Assembly (NCBI GenBank): GCA_013152515.1
Contig: JAADGD010000014.1
Location: forward strand, 1 to 42,785
Direction of reading: 5' to 3'
Length of the DNA stretch: 42,785 nucleotides
Origin: Planctomycetota bacterium
GTDB taxonomy: Bacteria; Planctomycetota; Planctomycetia; Pirellulales; Lacipirellulaceae
The stretch's first letter is position 1. Every line of letters begins with the position of its first letter. The notes under the pieces are model-generated. The model was not told where the DNA came from. It ran no database searches and was given only the letters and a program-made list of their open reading frames with translations. Shown one piece after another: positions 240 to 33,106 of the stretch. A program made the translations under genes and the position numbers.

Positions 240-343
240 TTTTTCTTCTTTTTTCCGTGAACGGTTACAATTTATCTGGTGTAGGGACACAAATTGACTT
301 AGGGCACGCCCATTTTTACGGCTGTTCACGCCTGTCTCATTGG

Positions 344-349
344 TATAAT
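344..349 (+). promoter_or_regulatory. Possible -10 box TATAAT, leaderless configuration
   Basis: A perfect TATAAT ends six bases before the ATG at 356, so transcription would begin at or next to the start codon. There is no Shine-Dalgarno sequence and no good -35 at normal spacing (TTCACG at 325 is too close). This is a candidate only. Confidence 0.3.
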
Positions 350-355
350 GAGTGG

Positions 356-3300
356 ATGAACCGCATTCGAAGTATAGCGACACTGCTGCTGGTGTTGGGG
401 TCCACGTCTATCGCGTTGGGCGAGGAGCCTCTGGAGTACAATCGCGACATTCGGCCGATTTTGGCGGAGAATTGTTTCGCGTGTCACGGGGCTGATAGCG
501 CTTCGCGCAAGGCGGAGCTGCGCCTTGATCGGCGTGAGGAGGCCGTTGATGCTGGCGCGATCGCGCCGGGCGATGCGGGCGAAAGCGAATTGATCGCGCG
601 GATTCTTTCCGACGACCCCGATCTGCTGATGCCGCCGGCCGAGACGAAGAAAGTGGTGACGCCTCAGCAGCGAGAGTTGCTTCAGCGGTGGATTGACTCG
701 GGCGCGGAATATCAGCCGCACTGGTCTTTTATCGCGCCTCGTTTGCCCGAGCCACCTGCCGTCAACAACGAAATGCAGGTCCGCAATGTCCTCGATCGTT
801 TCATTTTTGCGAGGTTGCAAAAAGAAGGGCTTACGCCGGCAGCCGAGGCCGATGCGCGAACGCTCTTTCGTCGGCTGCACTTGGACATTACCGGACTGCC
901 GCCGAAGCCAACCGACTTGGCGGCGTTTGTTGCTGATTACGAGTTGCGCAAAGACTTGGCACTTTCGGCATGGATCGACCGTCTGATGGAGTCGACCGCT
1001 TGGGGCGAACACCGCGCGCGGTACTGGCTCGATGCGGCCCGCTACGCCGATACGCATGGGCTGCATTTTGACAATTATCGCGAGATGTGGCCCTATCGCG
1101 ATTGGGTGATTCGGGCGTTTAACGCCAATCAGCCGTTTGATCAGTTTATTCTCGAACAACTTGCCGGTGATCTGCTTGCGAAGCCTAGCGACGATCAGCT
1201 GATCGCGACCGGTTTTCAGCGCTGCAACATCACGACGAACGAAGGGGGTACCATCGATGCCGAAAATTTAGCGATTTACGCCACCGATCGCGTCCAGACG
1301 TTTGGCTGGGTGTTTCTTGGTTTGACGACCAATTGCGCGCAGTGCCACGATCACAAGTTCGACCCGCTCACGATGCGCGACTTCTATTCGTTGGCCGCAT
1401 TTTTCGGCAATACGACTTCGCCGGCAAAAGATGGCAACACGAAAGATGGCAAAGGCCCCGTCCTGCTGGTCCCTTCCGAGGCGGACCGCCCGCGTTGGGA
1501 ATCGTTGCCGGCTGAGATCGCCGCCGCCAAGTCGCAACGCGACGAGCGAAAAAAGCAGTCGACCGGCGACTTTGAGAAATGGCTGATAGCGGCGACGCCC
1601 AGCGAAATTCCTGGCGTACCTAACGAGGGGCTGGTGCTTCATCTGCCGCTGGATGAAGGAAAGGGCGACGAGGTGCGAAATCTTGCCGGCTCGACCAAAA
1701 GCTTTCGCGCCGAGAGCGCTGTCGAGTGGCAGGCGGGCGGAAAACTTGGCTCGGCTCTACGAATCAAGGAGGGCAGCACCTTGAATCTTGGAGACCTGGG
1801 CGACTTCGAGAAGGATCAAGCTTTCAGCTACGGGGCTTGGGTCATGACCCCCGAAAAAGTCGCCAAGCGTGGCGTGAATGCTGCGATTTTGGCGCGCATG
1901 GACGAGGCGAACGGCCATCGGGGCTGGGATCTTTGGCAGTCGGGCAACACGCTGTCGGTTCACTTGATCGATTCGTGGGACGGCAATGCGTTGAAGGTTT
2001 CGACGAAGCAAGACGTCGTGGTTCCCGGCAAGTGGCAATACGCTTTTGTGACCTACGATGGCTCTGCGGATCCCAGTGGCATAAAAATTTACTTGGATGG
2101 TGTGGCGCTGCCGCTTCGCGTGGCGAAAAACACGCTGCAAGAGAACGCGACGATTCGAGCGAAAACACCGCTGCGGATTGGTCAGCGAAGTAGCGCAGCG
2201 GTGTTCGAGGGTGGATTGGTCCAGGAGGTGCGAATCTACGATCGCCTGCTCGACGACGACGAAGTCGGCGTTCTCGCCAAAGCGGCCGAGGTTCGCGCAG
2301 TGCTGGCCAAAGCTGCCGGTGACCGTAGCAAGGAAGAGCAAAATGTCTTGCACGATTATTTTTTGGTGACGAGTGACGAAGTCTTTGCTGGATTCGCCCA
2401 AGCTCTCCAAAACCTGGAAGCAGAGCAAGTGGCGATTCGGCAGCGGAGTCCGGTTACTCTCATCCAAAAAGAAAAGTCCGACTCACCCCCAATGGCGAAC
2501 ATCTTGCTGCGTGGAGCCTACGACCGAGTTGGCGAAGAGGTGAATGCTGCGACTCCCGCCGCCCTGCATTCTTGGCCCGAGGGAGCGCCGCACAACCGAC
2601 TGGGGCTGGCGATGTGGGTGGTTGATCGTAGCAATCCTCTCACGGCACGCGTGACGGTCAATCGTTTTTGGCAAGAAATTTTTGGCCGGGGAATTGTGGA
2701 AACGCCCGAGGATTTTGGCACTTCCGGGAGTTTGCCGAGCCATCCCGAGTTAATAGATTGGTTGGCGTGCGACTTTGTGGAATCGGGATGGAATGTCCAA
2801 CGCTTCTTCAAGCAAATTTTCATGAGCGCAAGCTATCGACAGGCAGCCGCAACGACCCTCGAAAAACTAGAGCGTGATCCAGAAAACATCCTGTTGTCGC
2901 GGGGACCGCGGTTCAGAATGGATGCCGAGATGGTCCGCGACACGGCGCTGTCCGTCAGCGGCTTGCTTTCGCCGCGGATGTATGGACCGGGGACGAGGCC
3001 GTATCAACCCAGCGACATCTGGAATGTGGTCGGTTTGTCCAATGGCGACACGCGCATTTACAAGCAAGACCAAGGCGAAAACCTCTATCGCCGGACGCTG
3101 TACAATTTCTGGAAGCGCATGGCCCCGTCGCCCAACATGGAAGCCTTCAACGCTCCCAGCCGCGAAGTTTGCACAGTGCATCGCGAACGGACCAACACGC
3201 CGCTGCAAGCGCTCATCACGCTGAACGACCCGCAATTTGTCGAGGCGGCGCGTCGACTTGCAGAAAACGCTCTTCGCGCAAGTAGCGGCGACGAGAGTAT

Positions 3301-3541
3301 GACCCTGAGCTATATCGTCGAGCGTGTCCTTTCACGGCCTCTGACCCCCAACGAGCAAACGCTCGTCTTGACAGCTCAAAAAGACTATCTCGGCTACTAT
3401 CAAAAAAACCCTGACGATGCCGTGGCGCTGATCCACGTCGGAGATAGCAAGCCCGACGCAGACCTCGGCGCTGCTACCTTGGCGGCATGGACGATGGTTT
3501 GCAACCAAGTGTTGAATCTGGACGAAGCGCTCAACAAGTAG
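356..3541 (+). CDS. PSCyt1-DUF1549-LamG-DUF1553 exported cytochrome-like protein
   Basis: Predicted 1061-residue exported protein. From the ATG at 356 the N-terminus is a clear signal peptide (two Arg, then a Leu/Val-rich core ending ALGEE), which is why I prefer it over the GTG at 257. A planctomycete cytochrome C domain (PSCyt1) follows with the heme motif CFACH (C40, C43, H44). DUF1549 lies at about 144-350 (AQCHDHKFDP), a LamG/concanavalin-like insert at about 423-635 (LHLPLDEGKG to VQEVRIYDRLL), and DUF1553 at about 745-975 (NTPLQALITLNDPQFV). Such proteins are thought to act outside the cytoplasm, possibly in electron transfer or polymer processing, but no function is proven. The LamG insert suggests carbohydrate or matrix binding. 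The stop lies 7 bases before the DUF1501 partner, so the two genes are surely co-transcribed. The second copy at 5135 lacks LamG. Confidence 0.9.
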   Translation: MNRIRSIATLLLVLGSTSIALGEEPLEYNRDIRPILAENCFACHGADSASRKAELRLDRREEAVDAGAIAPGDAGESELIARILSDDPDLLMPPAETKKVVTPQQRELLQRWIDSGAEYQPHWSFIAPRLPEPPAVNNEMQVRNVLDRFIFARLQKEGLTPAAEADARTLFRRLHLDITGLPPKPTDLAAFVADYELRKDLALSAWIDRLMESTAWGEHRARYWLDAARYADTHGLHFDNYREMWPYRDWVIRAFNANQPFDQFILEQLAGDLLAKPSDDQLIATGFQRCNITTNEGGTIDAENLAIYATDRVQTFGWVFLGLTTNCAQCHDHKFDPLTMRDFYSLAAFFGNTTSPAKDGNTKDGKGPVLLVPSEADRPRWESLPAEIAAAKSQRDERKKQSTGDFEKWLIAATPSEIPGVPNEGLVLHLPLDEGKGDEVRNLAGSTKSFRAESAVEWQAGGKLGSALRIKEGSTLNLGDLGDFEKDQAFSYGAWVMTPEKVAKRGVNAAILARMDEANGHRGWDLWQSGNTLSVHLIDSWDGNALKVSTKQDVVVPGKWQYAFVTYDGSADPSGIKIYLDGVALPLRVAKNTLQENATIRAKTPLRIGQRSSAAVFEGGLVQEVRIYDRLLDDDEVGVLAKAAEVRAVLAKAAGDRSKEEQNVLHDYFLVTSDEVFAGFAQALQNLEAEQVAIRQRSPVTLIQKEKSDSPPMANILLRGAYDRVGEEVNAATPAALHSWPEGAPHNRLGLAMWVVDRSNPLTARVTVNRFWQEIFGRGIVETPEDFGTSGSLPSHPELIDWLACDFVESGWNVQRFFKQIFMSASYRQAAATTLEKLERDPENILLSRGPRFRMDAEMVRDTALSVSGLLSPRMYGPGTRPYQPSDIWNVVGLSNGDTRIYKQDQGENLYRRTLYNFWKRMAPSPNMEAFNAPSREVCTVHRERTNTPLQALITLNDPQFVEAARRLAENALRASSGDESMTLSYIVERVLSRPLTPNEQTLVLTAQKDYLGYYQKNPDDAVALIHVGDSKPDADLGAATLAAWTMVCNQVLNLDEALNK

Positions 3542-3548
3542 GTTTCCG

Positions 3549-4982
3549 ATGATGAACGACATGCACACTCGACGACAATTCCTCGCTAGTGGCAAACACC
3601 TCCTGGGGGGTGCCGCCCTGGCGTGCCTTCAAGGCGAGTCTGCCTTCGCGGCAACTGGCGCGCGAGTCCCGGCGCCGCATTTCGCACCGCGTGCCAAGCG
3701 GGTCATCTATCTGCACATGGTCGGCGGGCCTTCGCAAATGGATCTGTTCGACTACAAACCGCAGATGAACGATTGGTACGACAAAGATCTGCCCGAATCG
3801 ATTCGCAAGGGCCAGCGGCTAACGACCATGACGAGTGGACAGGCACGTTTTCCGATCGCGCCGTCGAAGTATCGGTTTCGTCAGGCGGGGCAATGCGGCC
3901 TGTGGATGAACCATGAGTTGTTGCCCCGGCTGTCAGAAAAAGCTGACGAGATTTGCTGGATGCGTAGTCTGCACACCGAAGCGATCAATCACGAACCGGC
4001 CATCTTAGCAATGCAGACAGGCAACCAAGTCGCTGGGCGGCCTTGTCTGGGATCGTGGGCATCGTACGGGCTGGGGGCGATCAACGAAAACCTGCCGGCG
4101 TTTGTGGTGCTGGTTGCCATTCCGAGCAACCGCGATCAGGAACAAGCGATCTCGTCTCGGCTGTGGGGCGCTGGCTATCTGTCGGGCGAACATGCTGGGG
4201 TGTCGTTCCGGAGCAAGGGCGATCCGATTCTTTACATCAACAACCCGCCCGGCGTCTCCAGCGCAATGCGTCGACGTTCGATCGATGGCATTAACGCGCT
4301 GAACGAGATCAACTACCGCCACCTGGGCGACCCCAGTACGCACACACGAATGCAGCAGTACGAACTGGCGTTTCGGATGCAGGCGAGTGTGCCGGAGCTT
4401 ACCGACTTCGCCAGCGAATCGGCACACACGTTTGAGCTTTACGGCGAGGCGGCCAAAAAACCAGGCACGTTTGCCAATTCGGTGCTGATGGCGCGGCGAT
4501 TGGCGGAGCGAGGTGTGCGGTTCGTCCAGATTTATCACAACAATTGGGACCATCACAGCAATGTCAGTGGCCGGATGCCGAGCCAATGCCAAGACGTCGA
4601 CCAACCGTGCTACGCACTGCTCGAAGACCTCAAGCAACGTGGGATGCTCGACGATACGCTCGTGATTTGGGGCGGCGAATTCGGTCGGACGATCTATTCG
4701 CAGGGCCAGCTCTCGATGACCAACTACGGTCGCGATCATCACCCGCGCTGTTTCAGTATGTGGATGGCGGGCGGCGGTGCGAAGGGCGGCACGATTTATG
4801 GCGAAACCGACGATTTTTCGTACAACATTGTGAAAGATCCGGTTCATATCCGCGATTTCCACGCCACGATTTTGCATCTACTGGGCTTCGACCACGAGCG
4901 ATTTTCGTACCGTTTCCAAGGACTAGATCAACGACTGACCGGCGTACTGCCAGCTCGAGTTATTCCAGAGTTGCTAGCGTGA
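3549..4982 (+). CDS. DUF1501 protein with Tat signal
   Basis: The 477-residue DUF1501 protein is the standard downstream partner of PSCyt1-DUF1549-DUF1553 proteins. DUF1501 has an alkaline-phosphatase/sulfatase-like fold; its activity is not established. The N-terminus carries a twin-arginine signal (TRRQFLASGKHLLGG, Ala-rich c-region), so it should be exported folded. Family hallmarks are VGGPSQMDLFDYKP near residue 58, WGGEFGRT near 375, GRDHHPRCFSMWMAGGG, and the C-terminal [11 protein letters not shown]. Starts at 3549, 3552 and 3561 are all possible; none has a strong Shine-Dalgarno and all preserve the Tat motif. It is a clear paralogue of the protein at 8232. Confidence 0.9.
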   Translation: MMNDMHTRRQFLASGKHLLGGAALACLQGESAFAATGARVPAPHFAPRAKRVIYLHMVGGPSQMDLFDYKPQMNDWYDKDLPESIRKGQRLTTMTSGQARFPIAPSKYRFRQAGQCGLWMNHELLPRLSEKADEICWMRSLHTEAINHEPAILAMQTGNQVAGRPCLGSWASYGLGAINENLPAFVVLVAIPSNRDQEQAISSRLWGAGYLSGEHAGVSFRSKGDPILYINNPPGVSSAMRRRSIDGINALNEINYRHLGDPSTHTRMQQYELAFRMQASVPELTDFASESAHTFELYGEAAKKPGTFANSVLMARRLAERGVRFVQIYHNNWDHHSNVSGRMPSQCQDVDQPCYALLEDLKQRGMLDDTLVIWGGEFGRTIYSQGQLSMTNYGRDHHPRCFSMWMAGGGAKGGTIYGETDDFSYNIVKDPVHIRDFHATILHLLGFDHERFSYRFQGLDQRLTGVLPARVIPELLA

Positions 4983-5011
4983 ATGGTTTTTAGGTTTGTG
5001 ACTTGATACAA

Positions 5012-5085
5012 CGTAGGATAGGCTTCTAGCCTGTCCGTCCAGGTAGTACGTGCCCTTTACGGACAGGCTAGAAGCCTATCCTACG
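5012..5085. repeat. Perfect 27-bp inverted repeat, TAGGCTTCTAGCCTGTCC family
   Basis: Arms 5012-5038 and 5059-5085 are exact reverse complements around a 20-base loop, separating the two PSCyt1/DUF1501 pairs. A related copy sits at 20860-20953. The RNA hairpin would be very stable on either strand, but there is no T-run, so it is not a classical terminator. Confidence 0.9.
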
Positions 5086-5134
5086 ATTGCTCTATGATTT
5101 TAACGCCCGCGAAACAACATTTCTGTATAACCCG

Positions 5135-8100
5135 ATGACCCGAATTAGACTCTTGTTTTGTGCGATCCTGATTGGCTTCCCGACGGTCAGTCAGGCGGAG
5201 TCGCCCATTGATTTCGATCGCGACATCAAGCCCATCCTTTCCGACAACTGCTATCACTGCCACGGTCCCGACAGCGAGAGCCGTGAGGCTGAGCTGCGCC
5301 TGGACCAGAAAGATTCGGTCTTTTCTGAGCGGGATGGCTATTGGATCGTTCAGCCCGGCAATCTCGGCGAGAGCGAGCTGATCGCTCGGCTCGTGACGAG
5401 CGATCCTGACGAGCTGATGCCGCCGGCGGAATCGGGGAAAGAACTGACCGCCGAGCAGATCGAGCTGATGCGTCGTTGGGTTGCTGCCGGTGCACCGTGG
5501 AAAGAACACTGGTCGTTTGTCCCTCCCACCAGACCGCAATTGTCGAACCTCGAACATCTGGAAGGGGCGCGCAACGAGATCGACTATTTCATCGCGCAAC
5601 GTCTCGCAACCGCAGGACTCAAGTCGGAACCGATGGCGGATCGTCGTACTTTGGTTCGCCGGTTGCATCTCGATTTGACGGGGCTCCCTCCTACGGCTGA
5701 GCAAGTCGAGAAATTTCTCGCGGATAACCGTGAGGATGCTTACGAGCGACTGGTCGAAGAGCTGTTGGCTTCGCCCCATTTTGGCGAACGGATGACGGTC
5801 GCTTGGCTCGATCAAGCACGCTATGCCGACACGAACGGTTTTTCGATCGATGGCGGGCGGCATATGTGGCTGTGGAGAGACTGGGTCATTCACGCCTACA
5901 ACGGAAATATGCCGTTTGACCAATTTGTGATCGAACAATTGGCCGGCGACTTGTTGCCGAACGCGACGACCGATCAACTCGTCGCGACCGGTTTCAACCG
6001 AAATCACATGATCACGCACGAGGGAGGTACCATCCCGGCAGAAAATTTGGCGAACTACGCGTCCGATCGCGTGCGGACCACCGCCGAAGTCTTTTTGGGC
6101 CTCACGATGGGTTGTGCCCAATGCCATGACCACAAATACGACCCACTCACTCAGCGTGACTACTATCGCTTCCTCGCTTATTTTAACACGCTCGAAGACA
6201 AAGGCCTCGACGGGAACAGCGGGGTCAACTCCGTTCCCAAAACGCAGGCGACGTCGATTCTCGGTCGCGACCAGATCGAAGCGCGGCAACTACGCCGTCA
6301 GTTGCAGGTTCTCGAGCAGCAACAGCAGTTGCCTCTCGGCAGCCAAGCGGCCTGGGAAGAGCAAGCCCGTCGCGAAATCGCCGAGCTAGGCCAAGACTTG
6401 GTGCTGGTTCCGGCGGAGGTGATTAACGTCTCTTCGCCCAATCGGATCTCGGAGTTCGAGCTGCGCGACGACGGTACGCTGTTTCTCAAAAATGGAGGAG
6501 GACGCTCGCCTTCGATCACAGCCAAAATCACGCAAGAAAATGTGACTGGTTTGCGGCTCGTGTTTTATCCTGATCCGAGTTTCGAGCGAGGGGGGCTGGG
6601 TTATGGCAAGAAAGAGGGTCTGGAAGGAAGCTTCCTCCTAACGTCGATGTCGGTCTCGGCCACGGTTGCGGAGCAAGTCGATTTGTACGAGATGATCGAC
6701 ATTCGCAGCGCCACCGCCACCGCCTCGCATCCCGATCACCCAGCAGTTGATTGTCTTACCCCAACCGATACCGAGGGCTGGTCACCTGGCACCGGTGTGA
6801 CTACGCCGCAAAGCATTACTTTTCAGTTTCAGCGACCGATCCATGCGTCGGAAACTCCGTACCTGACCGTGATGCTGGTTTGGGGAGGCGGCAGAAGCCT
6901 GCAAGGCGGGAAATGTCGGATTTTCACTCTCAGCGGAAATGACGATCAATCAAACATCCCGCTAGAGGTGCGAGAAATCCTCGAGGTCTCCCCCGATCAG
7001 CGTACTCCACAGCAGGGCGAACGCCTCCGCAGTTATCACGTCAGCGTCGCGCCCGAACGGGCGAATCTGCGTTACCAAATAGCCAACCTCAAGGAACGGC
7101 TAGAAACCCTCACAGGCAAGTACGATGTGATGGTGATGAATACCGCCAAAAAACCGCGCAAGACGCACATTCTGAATCGGGGGCAATACGATCAACCGGG
7201 CGAGGAAGTCACCGCCGGCGTGCCTGCGGGCTTGCCTCAGCCACCACCCGGCCTGCCGGACAATCGACTTGGGCTGGCTCAATGGTTGGTTGCCCCCGAT
7301 CATCCGTTGACCTCGCGCGTCGCGGTGAATCGTCTTTGGCAATTGTTTTTCGGTCGCGGGATCGTCGCCACGTCGGCCGATTTCGGCTCGCAAGGCGCAC
7401 CGCCGACGCATCCCGAATTGCTCGATTGGTTGGCGCGCGAGTTCGTCGACAGCGGCTGGGACGTCAAACATGTGGTCAAGACGATGGTGATGTCAGCCGC
7501 TTATCGGCAGAGTTCAGTGACATCGCCCGAAAAGCTTGAAGCCGATCCCTACAATCAATGGCTATCGCGAGGACCACGCTTTCGACTAGAGGCCGAGTTC
7601 GTTCGCGATTCGGTACTACAAGTGAGCGGCCTGCTGGCAAATCGCATCGGCGGCCCCAGTGTTCGACCGTATCAGCCGCCCAATCTGTGGCGAGAAATCA
7701 GCCACTACGGTAGCTCGCCCGCGACGGCTCAGGTGTTTGTCCAAGATCATGGCGAACGGCTTTATCGCCGCAGCATGTATACTTATTGGAAACGAACCGT
7801 ACCGCCCCCTTCGATGATTAGCTTCGATGCCCCCAGCCGAGAAACTTGCTCGATGCAGCGCGAGCGGACGAACACGCCGTTGCAGGCGCTGGTGATGCTC
7901 AACGATCCGCAGTTTGTCGAAGCGAGCCGGAAGTTCGCCGAGCGAATCCTTCATTCGAGTTCCGAAACCGACGCACGCATCCGTTTTGCGTTTGAGCAAG
8001 CGCTCGCACGACCTCCAAGCAACGAGGAATTGGAAATCGTTCGTCAAACCTTGCAGCAAGAGCTACAACGATTTCGCGAAGACCCTGCTGCGGCGGCGGA

Positions 8101-8218
8101 GTACCTTGAATATGGCGAATCTGATCGCGACCCCGATTTGGCAGTCGAAGAACACGCCGCGTGGACGACTGTCGCCACGCTGATTTTTAATTTGAGCGAA
8201 ATGATCACCAAAGGTTAA
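5135..8218 (+). CDS. PSCyt1-DUF1549-DUF1553 exported cytochrome-like protein
   Basis: 1027-residue paralogue of the protein at 356. The ATG at 5135 opens a signal peptide ([14 protein letters not shown], cleavage near SQAES). The track's TTG start at 5087 begins at the edge of the repeat hairpin and is unlikely. PSCyt1 has CYHCH (C39, C42, H43). DUF1549 spans about 148-350 ([10 protein letters not shown]), and DUF1553 about 709-940 ([29 protein letters not shown]). The middle 440-660 is not LamG. It is a beta-rich region ([12 protein letters not shown] onward, with [19 protein letters not shown]) that resembles the galactose-binding-like inserts of this family; that assignment is tentative. 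A TATAAC hexamer ends three bases before the ATG. The gene is followed at 14 bases by its DUF1501 partner. Confidence 0.9.
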
Positions 8219-8231
8219 TGGACAAGTGAGC

Positions 8232-9674
8232 ATGAACCAACTCAGCCGCAGAGCATTTTTGTCACGACAAGCAGGCGGACTTGGCCAAATTGCCTTGGGG
8301 TCGCTGCTGCTCGGTGGCACCGGCATGGCAAAAGGCGCGCAGGGAAAATCTCTGGGACTCGAAGGGTTGCCTCACTTCGCACCCACGGCGAAACGCGTGA
8401 TTTATTTGTTTCAGTCGGGCGGCCCTTCGCACTGCGACTTGTTTGACTACTCGCCTGCCATCGACAAGCTACAAGGCACCGAATTGCCGCCGAGCGTGCG
8501 TGGCGATCAACGTGTCACGGGCATGACCTCAAGTCAGGGAAGCTATCCGGTCGTCGCGCCGATGTGGAACATGAGCCGGTGTGGCGAACGGGGCACTTGG
8601 ATCAGCGACCTGCTGCCCTATACGCAAAAAATTGCCGACAAGATCGCCATCGTGCGATCGGTGCATACCGAGGCGATCAACCACGACCCGGCTGTCACTT
8701 TCATCAACACCGGTTCGCAACAACCGGGCAATGCCAGTATGGGTGCCTGGCTCAGTTATGGTCTGGGTAGCGAAAACGAAAACCTACCCGCCTACACCGT
8801 TTTGATGTCGCAAGGTTCGGGGAAGAACCCGGGGCAGCCGTTGTTTTCGCGACTTTGGGGAAGCGGTTTTTTGCCGTCCAACCATCAAGGGGTAAATCTC
8901 CGGCCTGGGGCCAACCCGGTCTTGTACTTAGCGAACCCAAAAGGAATCACCTCAGAGAGCCGGCGGGCGATGCTCGACCAACTTGCGCAACTCAACGATT
9001 TGCAGGCTCAAGAGACGGGCGACCCCGAGATTCCTGCTCGCGTGGCGGCTTATGAAATGGCCTTTCGGATGCAGACCTCGGTTCCGAGTCTGACCGATCT
9101 CAGCGACGAATCAGATTCGACTTTCGATCTGTATGGGCCAGAATCGCGGCGTCCAGGCAGCTTCGCCGCCAATTGCCTGTTGGCGCGACGGATGGCCGAG
9201 CGAGGCGTGCGATTTATCCAGCTTTTTCATCGTGGCTGGGACCAGCATATCGCGATCAAACAGCAGCTCCCCAAGCAATGCCGAGATACCGACCAACCCT
9301 CCGCCGCACTCATTGTCGACTTGCATGAGCGGGGGCTGCTCGACGACACACTGGTGATTTGGGGCGGCGAATTCGGTCGAACCGTCTACAGCCAAGGGGC
9401 CTTGGGGAGCCCGCAAGCAGGTCGCGATCATCATGGCCGCTGTTTTTCGGTCTGGATGGCTGGCGGAGGGGTCAAGCGTGGCTGCGATTACGGCCAAACG
9501 GATGATTTTTGTTACAATATCACCGAAAACCCCGTACATATTAATGATCTCAACGCGACGATCTTGCATTGCTTGGGAATCAATCACGACCGGTTTACGT
9601 TCCCCTTCCGCGGACTCGACCAACGGCTGACCGGCGTGGAAGAGTCGCACGTCGTTCACGGGGTGCTTGGTTAG
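8232..9674 (+). CDS. DUF1501 protein with Tat signal (second copy)
   Basis: 480-residue DUF1501 protein. The Tat motif is [12 protein letters not shown] followed by a Leu/Gly-rich h-region. The ATG at 8232 gives a compact n-region; the GTG at 8226 would add only two residues. Motifs match the first copy: [55 protein letters not shown]. It sits 14 bases after the PSCyt1 gene and about 30 bases before the redoxin fusion gene, which supports a single transcript. The two DUF1501 proteins are alike but clearly diverged, so the duplication of the pair is old or the pairs were acquired separately. Confidence 0.9.
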
Positions 9675-9696: not shown

Positions 9697-9701
9697 GGAG
9701 G
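9697..9701 (+). promoter_or_regulatory. Shine-Dalgarno GGAGG deciding the GTG start at 9707
   Basis: GGAGG lies five bases before GTG 9707. The track's start (GTG 9695) overlaps this element, so 9707 is the likelier initiation codon. Confidence 0.65.
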
Positions 9702-9706
9702 AAATA

Positions 9707-11692
9707 GTGTTGAAGTATTGGGTCCTTATTGCAATCGCACTGGTGTCAGGTCACAGGCTGAACGCCGACCAAGAATCTACGAATCCACAATTCCCCGTCG
9801 GGCATCAGGTCGATTCCTTCACGTTGAAAGACTTTCGAGGGAAAACTCACTCTCTCGACGACATCAAAAGTCCGTGGATAGTCGTCGCCTTCCTGGGCAC
9901 AGAGTGCCCGCTCGCCAAATTGTATGGCCCCAGATTGATGGCGTTGCAAGAAAAGTATGAACCGCTGGGCGTTTCCTTTCTTGCTATCAACGCCAACTTG
10001 CAAGACTCGGTGACCGAGATTGCGGCTTACGCACGGATCCACGGCATTGAATTTCCGATTCTGAAAGACCTGGGCAACCGGGTCGCCGACCAGATGGGGG
10101 CAGAGCGGACTCCGCAAGTTTTTATTCTCGATCAGGAACGAAAAATTCGCTACAGCGGACGCATCGACGATCAGTACGGAGTCGGCTACATCCGCGACGA
10201 AGCACGACGACACGATTTGACGATTGCGCTCGACGAACTGCTAGCAGGAAAAAGTGTCACGACGCCGCTCACCGTCGCCCCAGGTTGTCATATTGGACGG
10301 CTCCGCGAGCCAAATCCCCAAGCCGAAGTGACTTATTCGAATCGAATCGCCCACATTTTCCAGCAGCGTTGCGTGGAATGTCATCGCGAAGGAGACATCG
10401 CCCCCTTTGCCTTGGCTGACTACGAGGAAGTGGCTGGTTGGGCTGCGATGATTGAGGAGGTCGTCCGCGAGCAGCGCATGCCACCTTGGCATGCAAATCC
10501 TGCCCACGGGCATTTTGTCAACGATCGGCTGCTCAGCGAAAAGGAAAAAAGCGATATTTATCAATGGGTCGCAGACGGCGCTCCCGAAGGCGACCGTGCC
10601 GACCTGCCGGAACCGAGGGAGTTTGTCACCGGCTGGCAACTTCCACAAACCCCCGATGAAATCTACACGATTCAAGACAAGCCGTTCCGTGTCCAAGCCG
10701 AAGGCGAGGTGAAGTATCAGTGGTTTGAAGTGGAGCTAGGTTTTGAAGAGGACAAGTGGGTTCAAGGCATGGAGATATTGCCGGGCAATCGGGCGGTGGT
10801 TCACCATATTTTGGCGTTCGTGAAAGAAGCAGGCAAATCGGGCAGAGAATTGGGAGCGAGTCGAGGATTTTTTGCCGGCTATGTACCCGGGTTGCGAGCG
10901 AAACCGCTACCTGCGGGGATGGCGAAGTATCTTCCCGCCGGTTCGACGCTCGCGTTTCAAGTTCATTACACGCCGATCGGTTCGGTCCAGTACGATCATA
11001 GCAAAATTGGTCTCGTGTTTGCTGATCCCGAGCAGGTGACACATCGGGTCATTTCGTCGAGCGCTGTGAATCACACGTTCGAGATTCCGCCCGGCGATAG
11101 CAATTATCGTGCTGAAAGTGCTTCGCCAAAAATCCCCTGGGATTCGCAATTGTTGTCGATGACGCCTCACATGCATTTACGAGGGAAATCTTTCCATTAC
11201 GAAGCCATCTTACCCGATGGGTCTACCAAAGTTTTGCTCGATATTCCTCAGTACGATTTCAATTGGCAAACCGAATACCGTTTTGCCGAAGGATTGGACC
11301 TACCGGCCAAATCACGAATCCATGCGGTAGCCCATTTCGACAATTCTGCTGCCAATCTGAACAATCCCGACCCTAGCAAAACTGTGCATTGGGGCGATCA
11401 GACTTGGGATGAAATGATGATCGGGTACTTTTTAATTGCCGTGCCGGTAGATTCTGCCGTGGCCATGCCGGAATCGAGATTGCAGACTCCGGCAGGCGCA
11501 CAGGCAGCGTTCGAAAGGCAGATTAAAAAAATGTTCCGACGTGCCGATGCGAATAACGACGGAGAAATATCGAATGAGGAAGCGCCGCCGATTCTGAAAG
11601 CGGCGTTTGCCCTTACCGATACCGACGGCAACGGCACCGTTTCGCTGGATGAACTACGCGTTGCGGTGAAGAAATATATGAAATCGAGATAG
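9707..11692 (+). CDS. Redoxin-cytochrome-copper monooxygenase-like-EF-hand fusion protein
   Basis: 661-residue multidomain protein with a short hydrophobic N-terminus (WVLIAIALVSG) that looks like a signal peptide. Residues about 20-175 form an AhpC/TSA-type redoxin with a single conserved cysteine (GTECPLAKLYGP). A mono-heme-type motif CVECH (C222, C225, H226) follows. The part from about 360 to 570 resembles copper type II ascorbate-dependent monooxygenases (VVHHILAFVKE, FQVHYTPIG, TPHMHLRGKSF), whose His/Met ligands appear preserved. The C-terminus carries two EF-hand loops, DANNDGEISNEE and DTDGNGTVSLDE. This suggests an exported redox enzyme that combines heme, copper and calcium sites; the substrate is unknown. 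It sits just downstream of the PSCyt1/DUF1501 pairs and may accept or donate electrons to them, which is inference. Confidence 0.85.
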   Translation: MLKYWVLIAIALVSGHRLNADQESTNPQFPVGHQVDSFTLKDFRGKTHSLDDIKSPWIVVAFLGTECPLAKLYGPRLMALQEKYEPLGVSFLAINANLQDSVTEIAAYARIHGIEFPILKDLGNRVADQMGAERTPQVFILDQERKIRYSGRIDDQYGVGYIRDEARRHDLTIALDELLAGKSVTTPLTVAPGCHIGRLREPNPQAEVTYSNRIAHIFQQRCVECHREGDIAPFALADYEEVAGWAAMIEEVVREQRMPPWHANPAHGHFVNDRLLSEKEKSDIYQWVADGAPEGDRADLPEPREFVTGWQLPQTPDEIYTIQDKPFRVQAEGEVKYQWFEVELGFEEDKWVQGMEILPGNRAVVHHILAFVKEAGKSGRELGASRGFFAGYVPGLRAKPLPAGMAKYLPAGSTLAFQVHYTPIGSVQYDHSKIGLVFADPEQVTHRVISSSAVNHTFEIPPGDSNYRAESASPKIPWDSQLLSMTPHMHLRGKSFHYEAILPDGSTKVLLDIPQYDFNWQTEYRFAEGLDLPAKSRIHAVAHFDNSAANLNNPDPSKTVHWGDQTWDEMMIGYFLIAVPVDSAVAMPESRLQTPAGAQAAFERQIKKMFRRADANNDGEISNEEAPPILKAAFALTDTDGNGTVSLDELRVAVKKYMKSR

Positions 11693-11774
11693 GCTCCGGA
11701 GGATAGTGGCGGTTGGTGAGGGCGTATTCAATTTTTGTCGCGGCACTTGGATAGCGCAGAAAAGCAATTTTTTC

Positions 11775-11851
11775 ACCGAACCGCGCCCGTTAGGAAGCGT
11801 TCCAACAGGCGTCTCGCTCAATGGACGCTTCCTTACGGGCGCGGTTCGGTG
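11775..11851. repeat. Inverted repeat, ACCGAACCGCGCCCGT family
   Basis: Arms 11775-11801 and 11825-11851 pair over 27 bases with one mismatch. A second, less perfect copy lies at 13212-13289 on the other side of the AtuA-like gene. Confidence 0.85.
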
Positions 11852-15646: not shown

Positions 15647-15973
15647 ATGACATACCGCCTCATCGTTTCGCTAGAAGCTTTTGAGGCTCTCGATAGTTTC
15701 GTTGATTACATTGCCGTGGATCAACAATCGCCTCTGAACGCTGAACGGTGGCTAGCCAAAGCATTGAAGTCCTTGCGGTCTCTCCGGAAATTTCCGCACC
15801 GCTGCCCACCTGCTCCCGAAAACGATCAATACATACACACGATTCGCATGTTGATAGTCGATCGTTGTTTGTTCGTTTTCCGCGTTGATGAAGAAGCGAA
15901 GGCGGTCCGAGTTCTCGACTTCCGCCACGGAAGTCAATTGCCGCGACCGCTCAACTTGCCTAGCGACGGTTGA
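15647..15973 (+). CDS. RelE/ParE-superfamily toxin
   Basis: 108-residue protein with the typical ParE/RelE layout. An N-terminal strand (YRLIVSLEAFEAL) leads into two helices (DSFVDYIAVDQQSP, AERWLAKALKSLRSLRKFP), and then strands with IRMLIVDRCLFVFRVDEEAKAVRVLDFRHGS. The final L-DFRHG signature is common in ParE-like toxins of this type. ParE members poison DNA gyrase and RelE members cleave mRNA; sequence alone does not decide between them. With the upstream antitoxin it forms a class II module, placed between rpoD and trxA. Confidence 0.8.
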   Translation: MTYRLIVSLEAFEALDSFVDYIAVDQQSPLNAERWLAKALKSLRSLRKFPHRCPPAPENDQYIHTIRMLIVDRCLFVFRVDEEAKAVRVLDFRHGSQLPRPLNLPSDG

Positions 15974-16595: not shown

Positions 16596-16805
16596 TGATT
16601 TGTTCCTTTTGAATTATATTGCTGAAAGGTCTCGTAGCAGAAAGTCTTATAGCAGGAAGTCGAGCAGTGATGGCCAGTGGCCAGTATGGTCCGATTATTG
16701 GAGATTGCCCCAAAAGTGTCAAGAAAGACTTCAGCCGGATTGATGAATCGGCACGAATACTCGATACTGATGGCCTTGTAGAATTAATTGGATGAGACTT
16801 GAAAG

Positions 16806-16830
16806 TTCGGCGAATCGTAGCTCGCCGGCC
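16806..16830 (+). repeat. Half-copy of the AGCCGGCGAGCTACG repeat
   Basis: TCGGCGAATCGTAGCTCGCC matches one arm of the palindrome at 16161-16253 with small changes. No pairing arm is found nearby, so this is an eroded or solo half-site. It lies just upstream of the redoxin gene. Confidence 0.7.
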
Positions 16831-16851
16831 ATTTTTTGGGAGATATTCGCA

Positions 16852-17433
16852 ATGGTTCGTACGCCTAGTACCATGCTGCCACTGGGGACAATTGCCCCCG
16901 GTTTTTCGTTGATCAATGTCGACAGCCAGACGGTCTCGCTCAGCGATTTCGAGGACGCGCCAGCACTGCTGGTCATTTTCATGTGCAATCATTGCCCGTA
17001 TGTGGTTCATGTGGCCGACCAATTGGCTCAGCTGGCGCACGAGTACATGAGCCGTGGCGTGGCGGTGGTGGGGATTAGCACCAACGACGTCGCCAACTAC
17101 CCGGCCGATTCGCCCGAGCAAATGGTCGCCGAAGCCGAAGCCCGCGGGTACACTTTCCCGTATCTCTACGACGAAACGCAAGAGGTCGCGAAAGCTTACT
17201 GTGCGGCCTGCACGCCCGACTTTTTTCTGTTCGACGCGGACAAAAAACTGGCCTACCGAGGGCAAATGGATTCGAGTCGTCCCGACAGCGGCATCCCGGT
17301 CACCGGCGAAGACCTACGCGCGGCGCTCGATGCGGTTCTTGATGGAAAAAAACCTGCGGAAGAACAGACGCCAAGCCTAGGTTGCAACATCAAGTGGAAG
17401 CCGGGAAACGAGCCGGATTATTTTGGCGAGTGA
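16852..17433 (+). CDS. Thioredoxin-like redoxin of the CNHCPYV type
   Basis: 193-residue thioredoxin-fold protein. The ATG at 16852 has GGGAG about nine bases upstream. The track's start at 16792 would add 20 residues read from the repeat half-site region and is rejected. The redox site is MCNHCPYVVH near residue 45, a CxxC motif typical of AhpC/TSA-related thioredoxin family proteins of this length. Further marks are GISTNDVANYPADSPEQM, TPDFFLFDADKKLAYRG and the conserved end LGCNIKWKPGNEPDYF. There is no signal peptide, so it is cytosolic. It probably reduces peroxides or disulfides; the partner is unknown. Confidence 0.88.
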   Translation: MVRTPSTMLPLGTIAPGFSLINVDSQTVSLSDFEDAPALLVIFMCNHCPYVVHVADQLAQLAHEYMSRGVAVVGISTNDVANYPADSPEQMVAEAEARGYTFPYLYDETQEVAKAYCAACTPDFFLFDADKKLAYRGQMDSSRPDSGIPVTGEDLRAALDAVLDGKKPAEEQTPSLGCNIKWKPGNEPDYFGE

Positions 17434-26359: not shown

Positions 26360-28858
26360 TTACCGAAGCAAGGCCAAGACGTTCTGCGGGTTCTGGTTGG
26401 CGATACCCAACACGTTCGTGCCCGACTGGACAAGAATTTGAGCCCGTGTCAACTTGGCCGATTCGACGGCGAAGTCAGCGTCACGAATCGAGCTTTCAGC
26501 CTCAGTCAAGTTGACCAAAGTGTCGTTGAGCGCGTTCTTGTTGGTCTCCAGAGTCGTCCGTTGGAAAGCACCCAGTCGACCGCGAAGCGAAGTGACCTGA
26601 TCAATCGCTTCAGCAACAATCTTGGCCGCCCCATTCGGGTCAGCAGTCAAGTCGGCCGAGCCGCCTGAGCCAAGCTGGAACAACTTGCCAGAAACGCCGC
26701 CCAAACGGGCTGTGTTCACACTAGTGACGCCAAGCCGAGCCTGCTGGTTCGACACGACATCTGGACCAAGTTGGAACAAAGCCCCACCGCCGGTGATGTC
26801 GAATTCGATCAAACCGAGGTAATCGGCTTCGACGTTGGCTGTTAGGTCCAAAGTCGCGGTGTTGATCGACAGTTCGTTGCCGTTGCCAGTGGCGGCGATG
26901 CCGTTGACTGTAGCTATGACATCTTCACCGGCGTCCCGCGAACCCGTGCCGATGGCTGTTTTGAAGACACCACCGTCAGCTTCTTCAACCACTTTGAGGT
27001 CGACAAATGCATTCGTACCGTACTCTGTCGAACGTAGTTCAAGGGTTGTGCCATTGGCTGTAGCACTCACACCCGTGGCATCCGATACCAAGTTGACCTG
27101 GTTGATCAGCTCGTTGAGGTTCGTACCAGCTTTGAGATTGAAGACTTCAGCACCGCTGAGTCCTGCGATCTCGATCACGGCGTCTTTGTTCAAACCGCCA
27201 GACGATGCAATACCGCCCGCGATGTTCGATGTACTTGGGCCCGTGTCATCAGTGGTCACATCGGCCTCATAAGTACCACTACCAGCAGTCGAAGTCAATT
27301 CGGCTGTGAAGTCGCCCAATTGGTCGCCGATAGCTGTCGCGATATCTGCCAGTTGATACTGCGAGGTAGCATCGATCGAAACCGTGATGTTGGTTCCGTC
27401 ATCGGCTACCGCAATTTGACCAGCGTTCGTGTTGGTCGTGTTGAATAACAGGTTCCGGTTTAGGTTCGGACCGCTTTTGGTAGCGGAAACCGTGATGACA
27501 TCATCTCCCGCGTCTCGACCACCCGTCAGGTTCGTCAAAGCGGCAGGCGTGTTGTCTAGCGAGCCGTTAAAGCTTCGTGTACTCGCTGTGGTAGCAGTAG
27601 CAACTTCACTGATGGATTGAATCGCAGTGGCGATGTCAGAAACCGACGTCTCCGTGTTACCGGAGTCAACCGCGATTGTGTAACCATCTGTTGCGTTACC
27701 GCTAACCGCAGGCGTTGTGCCAACACCAGCTTGCTCAATGAACGTAATGCTGATGTTGCTATCGGCACCCGCTGTGGCAGTAATCGCAATGCTTTCGGTT
27801 GTGGACGCAGCCAAACCACCCGTTAGCGTATTGCTATCGGTACCTGCATCACCACCCACAGTGACACCTGTACCTGTGGTTACCGTGCCGATAGTAAAGT
27901 CATTAACCGAGCCAACCGTTTGAATCGCACCGATCGCATCAGCGACTTCTTGGACCGTGGCTCCAGGGTTACCGGCAGCCGCATTGTTGAAGTCACCATT
28001 GACGGTGATCGTGTTCGTACCCGAGTCGTACACCGCGGTTGCGATATTGCCCGAATCGTCGTCGTTATCAACAAGCACAATATCGACACCACTGCCTGTC
28101 GCACCTTGAGCACCTGCGGCAGCACCATCGCTGGTTGTGGTGATTTCAATAGCACCATTGGTGAGAGTCAGTGTACCTGTACTTTCACGCTGAGCGACCG
28201 AGAAGCTCACCGAGCCAGAGGCTGTCAACTGTTCGTCAGCGAAGGTGATCACACCCGTAGCGGCGACCGGTGTAACAGATGTCGGAATGTTGGCAACATT
28301 AACCTGAGCCTTTGTTGCAGCAGCGGTGACATTAATGTCGACCGAAGCAACTCCACTGGCACCGAGGTTCGCCTGATCGATCTTGAGATCGCTGAGACGA
28401 CCAAAGTTGGCCGTCGAGTTGGTGATAAAGTCGAGGCTGCCGTCCAGCAACTTACGACCTTGGAACGTCGTCGTCTGGGCGATACGGTTGAGTGCCTCAA
28501 GCGACGAGTCGACTTGCAACTGATTAGCAGAGATCTGCTCTTCGGAAAGGGCACCCGCATTGGCCGACTCGGTGACGAGGCCACGGATATCGTTCAGTAG
28601 CGAGCTGACCTGACCCAACGCACTGTCGGCGGTGGCGATCACTTGGTTGGCACGGTCGGTGTTGCTGATCGCCTTGCGGATCGACGTAATGTCGCTTCGC
28701 AGGTTTTCGCTAGCAATCAAACCGGCAGGGTCATCTTTGCCCGTGTTGATTCGGAGACCGGTACTTAACCGGGTGAGAGCTTCGTTCAAGCTCGCATTCG
28801 AGCGGCCGAGCGTATTTCGGCCAATCAGCGAAGCGACATTTGTGTTAATTCGAGTCAT
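26360..28858 (-). CDS. fliC: Flagellin, large variant
   Basis: 832-residue flagellin, the filament subunit exported by the flagellar type III system. The conserved N-terminal D0/D1 part (residues 1-145, INTNVASLIGRNTLGRSNASL, GLRINTGKDDPAGL) and C-terminal D1/D0 part (about 755-832, LGAFQRTTLETNKNALNDTL, ending NPQNVLALLR) are canonical. The middle, about 600 residues, is Thr/Asp/Ala-rich with no Cys. It contains three related units around VADAIGAIQTV, VSDIATAIQSI and LADIATAIGDQ, plus one Flagellin_IN-like module (LNELINQVNLVSDATGVSAT). This part would form a large surface-exposed D2/D3 array. AGGGG lies about 12 bases upstream of the ATG. Expression is probably tuned by CsrA and FliW, encoded just upstream. 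Confidence 0.95.
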   Translation of the reverse strand: MTRINTNVASLIGRNTLGRSNASLNEALTRLSTGLRINTGKDDPAGLIASENLRSDITSIRKAISNTDRANQVIATADSALGQVSSLLNDIRGLVTESANAGALSEEQISANQLQVDSSLEALNRIAQTTTFQGRKLLDGSLDFITNSTANFGRLSDLKIDQANLGASGVASVDINVTAAATKAQVNVANIPTSVTPVAATGVITFADEQLTASGSVSFSVAQRESTGTLTLTNGAIEITTTSDGAAAGAQGATGSGVDIVLVDNDDDSGNIATAVYDSGTNTITVNGDFNNAAAGNPGATVQEVADAIGAIQTVGSVNDFTIGTVTTGTGVTVGGDAGTDSNTLTGGLAASTTESIAITATAGADSNISITFIEQAGVGTTPAVSGNATDGYTIAVDSGNTETSVSDIATAIQSISEVATATTASTRSFNGSLDNTPAALTNLTGGRDAGDDVITVSATKSGPNLNRNLLFNTTNTNAGQIAVADDGTNITVSIDATSQYQLADIATAIGDQLGDFTAELTSTAGSGTYEADVTTDDTGPSTSNIAGGIASSGGLNKDAVIEIAGLSGAEVFNLKAGTNLNELINQVNLVSDATGVSATANGTTLELRSTEYGTNAFVDLKVVEEADGGVFKTAIGTGSRDAGEDVIATVNGIAATGNGNELSINTATLDLTANVEADYLGLIEFDITGGGALFQLGPDVVSNQQARLGVTSVNTARLGGVSGKLFQLGSGGSADLTADPNGAAKIVAEAIDQVTSLRGRLGAFQRTTLETNKNALNDTLVNLTEAESSIRDADFAVESAKLTRAQILVQSGTNVLGIANQNPQNVLALLR

Positions 28859-30526: not shown

Positions 30527-33106
30527 CTAAAGAAAATCTAGCAGCGAAAGCTGTAAGATATTCGCTGTTGCTCGCAGTGACGCCTCCAGCGAAATCTGCC
30601 GAGCGGTCATCTGCGAAATCGCTTCGACCAGATCGACGTCGATCTCCTCGGACAAGGCCGAACGAATCTGGATCTCTTCGTCTTGCAAGTTGAACTTCGA
30701 AAGTTCTAGGCTACGAAACCGTGTTCCCACATCGGCTTGGGCAAAAGTCACCCGATCGATGTCCTTTTCCAACTTGGCGGCCGCTCGCTCGATCTCAGGG
30801 AGATCGTTCGCAGACAGTGCATCGCGCAGGCGAATCAGCGAAGTGAAGACACTGTCGGTCTCCAGGGCATAGCGGTCTTTGCCCGTCAGCGTGGTCGTAG
30901 GCGAGGACTTGGTGGTTTGACCTTTGTCGAGCAGACCCAAGAACTCGGCTGCCTGACTGCTGCTGATTTTCGTCACGGTCAGATCGCCAACCGAGCTGCC
31001 AGTGTTGTCAATTAGCTCGACTCCATTGCCACTCGCCGCGAGTTGAGCCGTGACCCGTCCCGCGTTGCCTACTGCGTTGTTGATCAAGTCGAGCACATCG
31101 CCAACCGACTCCGCACCGCTCAGATCGATCGCCAAAGCAGTGCCGTCTTTGGCAGTAATGTTAAAATCAATCGAGGGAATCGTCACATCGATACCGCCCG
31201 TCACGGCGAGATCCGCCCCCAACTCCGTGACGGTCAATCGTCCCGTGCCGACGGTGTTGTCGACAAGATCAATGCCGTTGCCGTCGGCGTTTAACTGCGC
31301 AGTGACCAGAACAGGCGCGAGGTTCTCTGCGTCGTTGTTGATCGCATTGATCGTGTCGCTGAGCGTGTTGACGTCTGTCACACTGCTCAGATCGACATCA
31401 AACGCAGTTCCGTCACTGACTGTGATAGTAAGATCGGCCTTTGTAAAGTTCAAATTGACCGCGTCTTTTCTTGGCACGCCGACACCAAAGTTAAAATCGC
31501 TGAGCTTCGTGTCTTCTGTCAACGTGCGAATTCCCAGCTGCGTAGCCGTGGTGCCGCCGTTGATTTCGCCAATCTGAAAATCGTTGCCGCTCAGACGCGA
31601 ACGAATGTTGATGCCCGTGCCCGCAGTGTTGATTTCCGCGAGTAGGCCAGCTTCCGAACGATTGAGCCGATTGAGCAAATCTTCGACCGTCTCGTCGCCG
31701 GTGAATTGGATGTCGTATGTTTCGCCACCGTTAACGACGCGAATGCCTGAACTTTGGTCGAGCGTTTCGCCCGTTCCGCCGGTAGTCGTTGCTGTTGCGC
31801 CAACCGCGACCAAACCGGAGCCTGCCTCGCTCGGAGAACTTGCGTCCCCTTGATCGATTTCAGCGAGAAAGTTCGCATCGGCATTGATCGCGTCCACGAC
31901 TTCTTGAGCAGTCGTATCGCCATCATCGATCGTAATAATGAGCGTCTTGGCGCCGCCATCAAACGCCACACTTACCGGCGAGCCATCGCCACCATCGACA
32001 AAGCTCACCGCCACGTTGTCCAAGCTTGTGCCATTCACACTCGCTTCGATAAGAATATCGTTATTGTCGTTGCTGCCGCCGGAGTTAAGCGAGGCTCGAG
32101 CTTTGGTGCCTAGGAGATCTTCCAGACGAGTTGTCTTGAGCAGCAAAGGATCAAGGTCTTCGCTCACAATTGTCGAAGGGCTTCCAAAGCCGAGCAGCCC
32201 CAACTCGCGCGCCGTGGTACCGGTGCCGACTTCGCTAATCGACAGCGAGTCGCCATCGGACAATTGGATTTGAATCCCATCGCCCGTGATGGTCACGTCG
32301 ACTTGCGAGCCTGTAGGTGGATTGTCTTCGATCAATTTCACCACGTCGCCAATCGTAGTCGCGCGACTCAGGTCCACAATCGCAACTTGGTTGGTGGTTG
32401 TATTCGTAATTTGCAGCGAGCCATTGGGGTTGATCCCACGCCCGCTGCGCAGACTACTAAGCCGTGTCTCCGCATTGACCGGTGGGTTTAGATCGATCGT
32501 GCCCTCGACGGCAGCGGAAATGCCCCCGAAAACCTCTTGACCCGAGATGCTCGACGAGAACAAAACGCCAATATCAGAGTAGTTGCGAATCTGGCGGTCG
32601 TCGCCTTGGTAGACGACATTGTCGCCTTCGAACGTGTAGGGCTGTACGTTCGTCTGCGAACCAGAAAAAAGGTAGCGTCCATTGAATTGTCGATTCCCCA
32701 AAGTCACCAGAGAATCGAGCGCGGCGTTGATCGTGGCAACCGCCGCTTCTCTTTCCTGGTCTGTGGCAATGGTGCCGATAACTCCGAGCGTATCCGCCTT
32801 GATCTGACTGAGCGCATTGGCAACACCTTCAGACCCACCCAACGTCGCATCGGTACTTCCCAAGAAGAGGAGCCCACTGTCGATGTTCGATCCCAACTGT
32901 TCTTTGCGGGAAAGCAATCGTTGAAACGAAATCGCCCGCAGTGCCGAAGGCGCATCCTCGCTGGGCAGCGTAATCCGCAGCCCGGTGCTGATCTGTTCCT
33001 GCAAACGAAACAGATCGAGCTGATCGGCCTGGTACTGCTGCGTCAGCCGCTGTCGGGCTAGCAGCCCAGAGATACGCGTGGTCGGAACAGGAGGAATTCG
33101 GGACAT
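30527..33106 (-). CDS. flgL: Hook-filament junction protein FlgL, greatly enlarged
   Basis: 859-residue FlgL (HAP3), which joins hook and filament; E. coli FlgL has 317 residues. The flagellin-like N-terminus (residues 1-165, LFRLQEQISTGLRITLPSEDAPSALR, NGRYLFSGSQT) and C-terminus (about 735-859, ADVGTRFRSLELSKF, LVEAISQMTARQISLEASL) identify it. Between them are about five Flagellin_IN-like modules like those of FliD, for example TIGDVVKLIEDN, TVEDLLNRLNRSE, SVGDVLDLINNA, each ending in a G-x-x-L(I/V)D(N/S) strand. The stop codon is the edge of an AGTTGTGAGTCGCAACTC phrase repeat. The gene follows flgK by 71 bases. Confidence 0.9.
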   Translation of the reverse strand: MSRIPPVPTTRISGLLARQRLTQQYQADQLDLFRLQEQISTGLRITLPSEDAPSALRAISFQRLLSRKEQLGSNIDSGLLFLGSTDATLGGSEGVANALSQIKADTLGVIGTIATDQEREAAVATINAALDSLVTLGNRQFNGRYLFSGSQTNVQPYTFEGDNVVYQGDDRQIRNYSDIGVLFSSSISGQEVFGGISAAVEGTIDLNPPVNAETRLSSLRSGRGINPNGSLQITNTTTNQVAIVDLSRATTIGDVVKLIEDNPPTGSQVDVTITGDGIQIQLSDGDSLSISEVGTGTTARELGLLGFGSPSTIVSEDLDPLLLKTTRLEDLLGTKARASLNSGGSNDNNDILIEASVNGTSLDNVAVSFVDGGDGSPVSVAFDGGAKTLIITIDDGDTTAQEVVDAINADANFLAEIDQGDASSPSEAGSGLVAVGATATTTGGTGETLDQSSGIRVVNGGETYDIQFTGDETVEDLLNRLNRSEAGLLAEINTAGTGINIRSRLSGNDFQIGEINGGTTATQLGIRTLTEDTKLSDFNFGVGVPRKDAVNLNFTKADLTITVSDGTAFDVDLSSVTDVNTLSDTINAINNDAENLAPVLVTAQLNADGNGIDLVDNTVGTGRLTVTELGADLAVTGGIDVTIPSIDFNITAKDGTALAIDLSGAESVGDVLDLINNAVGNAGRVTAQLAASGNGVELIDNTGSSVGDLTVTKISSSQAAEFLGLLDKGQTTKSSPTTTLTGKDRYALETDSVFTSLIRLRDALSANDLPEIERAAAKLEKDIDRVTFAQADVGTRFRSLELSKFNLQDEEIQIRSALSEEIDVDLVEAISQMTARQISLEASLRATANILQLSLLDFL

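Follow-up and report, generated by a model that had tools for sequence, protein, structure and literature searches.

A putative cytochrome c-fused copper hydroxylase of the PHM/DBM type in Planctomycetota and other bacteria

The window analyzed here, a 42,785-nucleotide stretch of DNA from a Planctomycetota bacterium, encodes a 661-aa protein that we interpret, with moderate confidence, as an exported type-2 dicopper hydroxylase of the PHM/DBM type that uses its own cytochrome c as electron donor instead of ascorbate. According to the literature, PHM and DBM make up a small eukaryotic class of copper hydroxylases (PMC4846438), and one review tabulates them under eukaryotes only (PMC7435645). 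In contrast to these accounts, every sufficiently complete bacterial core that we examined, across several phyla, carried a heme domain immediately ahead of the copper core. This pairing is the new point; the sequences themselves are already public in many genomes. We found no description of a bacterial cytochrome-PHM fusion in a search of the open-licence literature.

Domain architecture and conserved residues

The gene is a single uninterrupted frame that opens with GTG, from which all residues of the protein are counted (Table 1). A probable signal peptide is followed by a redoxin domain, a putative heme-c domain, a copper core, and two EF-hands, and the gene product is probably exported and thus periplasmic or lumenal. 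A preliminary description of this DNA had proposed that one polypeptide joins a redoxin, a heme-c motif, a copper monooxygenase-like domain, and EF-hands, and the reading frame, Pfam, Foldseek, and the motifs together confirmed this. In Pfam searches of the window protein, the redoxin (AhpC-TSA, 1.1e-18) and the EF-hands (1.5e-12) were over the cut-off, the heme domain was under it (Cytochrome_CBB3 8e-4, Haem_bd 6e-4), and the copper domain received no call. Among 58 homologs, Cytochrome_CBB3 was found, at weak scores, in 57, and Cu2_monoox_C in 40, with a best value of 2.5e-6 for the latter. The AlphaFold2 model of the window protein, built with these 58 homologs, reached a pLDDT of 91.2 and a pTM of 0.83.

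Table 1. Positions of the gene, its domains and predicted ligands, and its upstream neighbours in the window.
Feature	Residues	Position	Strand	Basis or remark
PSCyt1-PSCyt2-Laminin_G_3-PSD1 protein, upstream neighbour		257..3541	+	Pfam
DUF1501 protein, upstream neighbour		3549..4982	+	Pfam
PSCyt1-PSCyt2-PSD1 protein, upstream neighbour		5087..8218	+	Pfam
DUF1501 protein, upstream neighbour		8226..9674	+	Pfam; ends 32 bp ahead of the gene
Shine-Dalgarno-like GGAGG		9697..9701	+	5 nt upstream of the GTG start; from sequence
Whole gene, exported redoxin / cytochrome c / PHM-like copper core / EF-hand protein (putative)	1-661	9707..11692	+	661 aa
Probable signal peptide	about 1-20	9707..9766	+	Hydrophobic N-terminus VLKYWVLIAIALVSG; low-confidence region of the model; cleavage position approximate
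Redoxin domain	29-197	9791..10297	+	Pfam; 2cvb by sequence and fold; C67 at 9905-9907, C194 at 10286-10288
Putative heme-c domain	203-300	10313..10606	+	CVECH (222-226) at 10370-10384; axial-Met candidate M258 (MPPW) at 10478-10480
PHM/DBM-like dicopper core (predicted)	312-585	10640..11461	+	Foldseek to PHM and DBH; Cu2_monoox_C in 40 of 58 homologs
Predicted CuH ligands 1 and 2	H366, H367	10802..10807	+	Invariant in 173 cores; ligand set per PMC4846438
Predicted CuH ligand 3 (VHYT)	H420	10964..10966	+	Invariant in 173 cores
Predicted CuM ligands 1 and 2 (HMHLRG)	H488, H490	11168..11176	+	Unsubstituted in 173 cores
Predicted CuM ligand 3 (DEMMI)	M570	11414..11416	+	Met in 166 of 173 cores; remaining 7 truncated or gapped there
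EF-hand loop 1, DANNDGEISNEE	614-625	11546..11581	+	Pfam EF-hand
EF-hand loop 2, DTDGNGTVSLDE	638-649	11618..11653	+	Pfam EF-hand

In DBH, the ligands of CuH are three His, and those of CuM are two His and one Met (PMC4846438). Judged from its conserved motifs, the core of the window protein carries the full ligand set of this PHM/DBM type. The ten heme and copper residues showed zero substitutions among 173 cores, of which 164 were complete and nine had losses only at truncated or gapped stretches; the motifs are thus no product of chance. Within the pattern scan of genome contigs, the conservation of M570 and of the DFNWQ motif is partly due to selection, because the scan patterns included both; for M570, the other searches were free of this. 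The motifs that had been reported as intact (ECPLAK, CVECH, HH/HYTP/HMHLRG, and two EF loops) were borne out, and so were the His ligands listed there; M570, the third CuM ligand, and M258, the probable axial heme ligand, had been missed. The preliminary description had named missing copper ligands as a point against its reading; examined by conservation and fold, all six are present.

Foldseek comparison of the modeled core with the PDB gave matches to PHM (3mll; E 1.2e-14, TM 0.65 by target length) and to human DBH (4zel; E 2e-14), and the predicted fold (model pLDDT 91) contains the two-domain jelly-roll catalytic core of the PHM/DBM type. A sequence search of the PDB with the copper-core profile alone retrieved no PHM chain; the kinship of the core to PHM rests on the fold match together with Cu2_monoox_C. 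As in PHM (3mll/1phm), the two predicted jelly-roll domains bear HH plus H and HxH plus M in the same order and with similar spacing; unlike PHM, the window protein has a fused heme-c domain and a Thr (T486) for Arg at the position two residues ahead of HxH, and the donor of eukaryotic PHM is ascorbate. DBH has the same ligand set (H262, H263, and H333; H412, H414, and M487), with distances from HH to H, H to HxH, and HxH to M of 70, 79, and 73 residues, compared to 53, 68, and 80 in the window protein. DBH differs in having a DOMON domain, a dimerization domain, and conserved disulfides, whereas the window protein has the redoxin, the heme-c domain, and the EF-hands, with no Cys in its copper core (residues 312-585; 0-4 Cys in homologs). 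The Cys residues behind the conserved core disulfides of DBH, which are structural and not catalytic, are therefore missing here.

The position two residues ahead of HxH, assigned by motif without superposition, is occupied by M, S, T, F, L, or A across the family. In rat PHM, this position is held by an Arg (R240) that binds the carboxylate of the substrate. Since this carboxylate anchor has no counterpart at the position in the window protein or in the 173-core family, peptide amidation was judged unlikely.

In the heme domain, C222, C225, H226, and M258 showed no substitution in the 173 cores, truncated ends aside, and M258 is likely the axial heme ligand. The predicted fold has a helix before CxxCH and a C-terminal helix, and this helix order fits cytochrome c. 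With the heme domain alone, the best cytochrome c match of Foldseek in the PDB was c554 with an E of 9.6, below significance, and profile matches to solved cytochromes were weak and intermixed with chance matches. Because there was no significant fold match, the fold assignment is tentative and relies on the motif, the helix order, and these weak profile matches. The domain resembles Cytochrome_CBB3 and Haem_bd in its CxxCH, downstream Met, and helix order, and it differs from them in falling under the family cut-off, in its MPPW motif, and in its fusion to a copper core. These features suggest that the putative heme-c domain likely binds heme. The same genome contains a 1,222-aa ORF matching ResB and Cytochrom_C_asm, and heme attachment is therefore feasible.

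The redoxin scored 67.9 bits for AhpC/TSA-Redoxin, compared to a cut-off of 26. Its active site has a single Cys, C67 (in ECPLAK; GTEC), without a CxxC, and C194 is its only other conserved Cys. At each of these two positions, 50 of the 58 homologs have Cys; most of the others lack the redoxin, and a subset has CPxC instead. The missing CxxC argues against a reductase of the ResA type and is compatible with a peroxidase or a two-Cys mechanism. The closest structures were the thioredoxin-like proteins 2cvb and 3u5r, with 34% identity to 2cvb over 177 columns of the fold alignment and the distal Cys (GCxI) kept. Unlike in 2cvb, the first Cys of CNHC is replaced by Gly (GTEC), and the redoxin is fused to heme and copper domains. 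Both EF loops are canonical 12-residue Ca loops with D1, G6, and E12. A second, free-standing redoxin (AhpC-TSA, 2.4e-22) lies at 16792-17433 of the window and shares 31% identity with the redoxin part of the gene.

Distribution of the heme-copper pairing

Searches with the heme-copper region as the query gave matches in 84 of 199 sampled genomes of Planctomycetota. When the whole protein was used, several genomes of the same order had about 20 matches each, and the window's own genome (3.7 Mb, about 80% complete) had a single full copy plus three matches to the redoxin alone. The window protein is thus ordinary within its group.

To avoid bias, we also used the copper part alone as the query, which yielded 80 loci; the heme domain was directly in front wherever the sequence reached far enough upstream. 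Two candidates for heme-less cores (L129 and L148) were rejected because their genes proved to be interrupted, the heme domain lying just upstream, and in one locus (L206) an in-frame stop lies between the heme and copper parts. Searches of other groups with the Cu2_monoox_C model covered genomes obtained via records titled Acidobacteria, Verrucomicrobia, and others, as well as two further groups, represented by 99 and 145 genomes; phylum names outside Planctomycetota are as given in the record titles. The heme domain again stood in front in those fetched loci that extended far enough upstream.

The other domains vary. The redoxin is fused in 119 of the 173 core proteins and missing from 54, and EF-hands occur in 50. 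On a quick tree of the cores, built without an outgroup, the redoxin requires at least nine changes and the EF-hands at least 16, far below the values for shuffled labels. The redoxin and EF-hands are optional in the family, and the heme-copper pairing is constant.

Separate redoxin genes were also observed. In one locus (L205, 3220-5246 in reverse-complement coordinates), a gene for an exported redoxin runs, with an ATGA overlap, into the start codon of a heme-copper gene whose product is also exported. In four others (L044, L045, L048, and L049), a redoxin gene lies downstream, on the same strand, of a heme-copper gene without a full redoxin domain. Among the sampled Acidobacteria-side loci, the redoxin was mostly absent inside the short flanks examined. 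The redoxin is coupled to the heme-copper core in both fused and split forms.

Electron supply of the copper core

The conservation of the heme-copper fusion throughout the sampled bacterial family fits an electron-donor role, and the heme domain is probably the electron supply of the copper core. This fits, for the heme, the idea of a built-in donor that had been raised for the heme motif and the redoxin together. The term "self-sufficient" used in that context is overstated: the heme still depends on an external source of electrons, and the redoxin has no CxxC and is missing from 54 of the 173 proteins. Lytic polysaccharide monooxygenases are likewise copper monooxygenases that depend on an electron donor; their site is a mononuclear His-brace in a different fold, unrelated to the dicopper core here.

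From these computed features we infer the following course of reaction. Once loaded with heme and copper, the protein would receive electrons from periplasmic carriers at the heme-c domain, which would pass two electrons singly to CuH (H366, H367, and H420). O2 would be bound and activated at CuM (H488, H490, and M570), leading to hydroxylation of a small substrate at a C-H bond. The heme domain would thereby replace ascorbate, the donor of the eukaryotic enzymes. The redoxin (C67 and C194) would serve the same task while being dispensable for some family members; most likely a thiol peroxidase or thiol reductase, it may clear peroxide leaked from the copper site or keep the ligands reduced. 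The EF-hands may form an optional calcium-stabilised tail.

A less likely explanation is that the copper core acts as an H2O2-using peroxygenase or as an oxidase, with the redoxin and heme handling peroxide and the heme serving as a peroxide or redox sensor, not as a donor. The AhpC/TSA type of the redoxin, with its single active-site Cys, and its association with the core, whether fused or encoded separately, are consistent with such a role. However, the axial position is Met in all 173 cores (truncated ends aside), which is typical of electron carriers and not of peroxidases, and the redoxin is missing from 54 of the 173 proteins, whereas the heme domain is kept.

It is rather improbable that electrons flow in reverse, from the substrate through copper to the heme, in a dehydrogenase-like or metal-oxidising protein that feeds the respiratory chain, perhaps in concert with the planctomycete cytochromes encoded nearby. 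The heme-copper fusion by itself gives no direction of flow, and the gene stands directly behind PSCyt1/DUF1501 pairs, with its nearest relatives close to such pairs; however, this linkage is confined to those relatives, and the full CuH/CuM set is kept with its Met-ligated O2 site, which is needed for the O2 chemistry of PHM/DBM (PMC4846438). Least probable is a non-enzymatic copper-binding or heme/copper delivery factor for the maturation of periplasmic cytochromes or oxidases, like ResA, TlpA, or Sco: the redoxin has relatives in ResA and in thioredoxin-like proteins of the 2cvb type, but it lacks the CxxC that ResA requires, the complete PHM-type active sites are invariant, and about 20 paralogs in some genomes are ill-suited to a housekeeping maturation factor.

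For the family as a whole, we see an even chance that these proteins form a large and diversified bacterial branch of PHM/DBM, in which a cytochrome c donor, always fused directly ahead of the core, replaces ascorbate and a peroxiredoxin-like protein is a recurring third partner. If so, a class usually called eukaryotic would have a bacterial branch fed by the respiratory chain, with many substrates to find and many new hydroxylases on offer, about 20 of them in some genomes. Such a branch would also allow the entry of electrons into CuH to be tracked optically, through the heme, within one polypeptide. In addition, the pairing gives a lead to the function of proteins that Pfam-based annotation mostly recognises by the redoxin domain alone.

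Genomic surroundings of the gene

Upstream of the gene, positions 257-9674 of the window hold two tandem pairs of a PSCyt1-PSCyt2-PSD1 protein and a DUF1501 protein, with a Laminin_G_3 insert in the first large protein and not in the second. The gene had been described as directly following two cytochrome-like giants in the same direction. The giants and their orientation were correct, but each is followed by DUF1501, and it is DUF1501 that the gene adjoins. Among 20 homologous neighbourhoods, a PSCyt1/DUF1501 pair lies directly upstream on the same strand in one (L065) and nearby, with an inverted pair between, in another (L064). Two more (L068 and L069) have such members at a distance of some kb, and the remaining 16 have no such pair; the other neighbours scanned around the homologs revealed no shared theme. 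Linkage to the PSCyt1 genes was thus limited to the nearest relatives, and the operon link was dropped as a clue to family-wide function.

PSCyt proteins are unassigned in function, and a role in carbohydrate metabolism has been suggested from fusions to CBMs and from sulfatase neighbours (PMC5615132). This link is the only thread toward the polymer attack that had been proposed for the protein, and it does not touch the window protein itself. The proposal found no backing: the protein has no carbohydrate-binding module, and the substrates of its known relatives are small molecules or the ends of peptides.

Just 3' of the gene, at 11774-11851 of the window, lies an inverted repeat of 27 nt with 96% complementarity and a loop of 24 nt. 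With two or fewer mismatches allowed, the arm GAACCGCGCCCGTTAGGAAGCGT has 175 occurrences in the 3.7-Mb genome, compared to 0 for the reversed control. The copies often form +/- pairs about 47 nt apart, as in a REP-like palindromic repeat. Beside fliD and flgK homologs, the window encodes two large proteins resembling flagellin, one of 832 aa at 26360-28858 and one of 859 aa at 30527-33106; in the second, only Flagellin_N matches at 1e-5 or better. A 108-aa ORF at 15647-15973 contains a ParE-type toxin domain.
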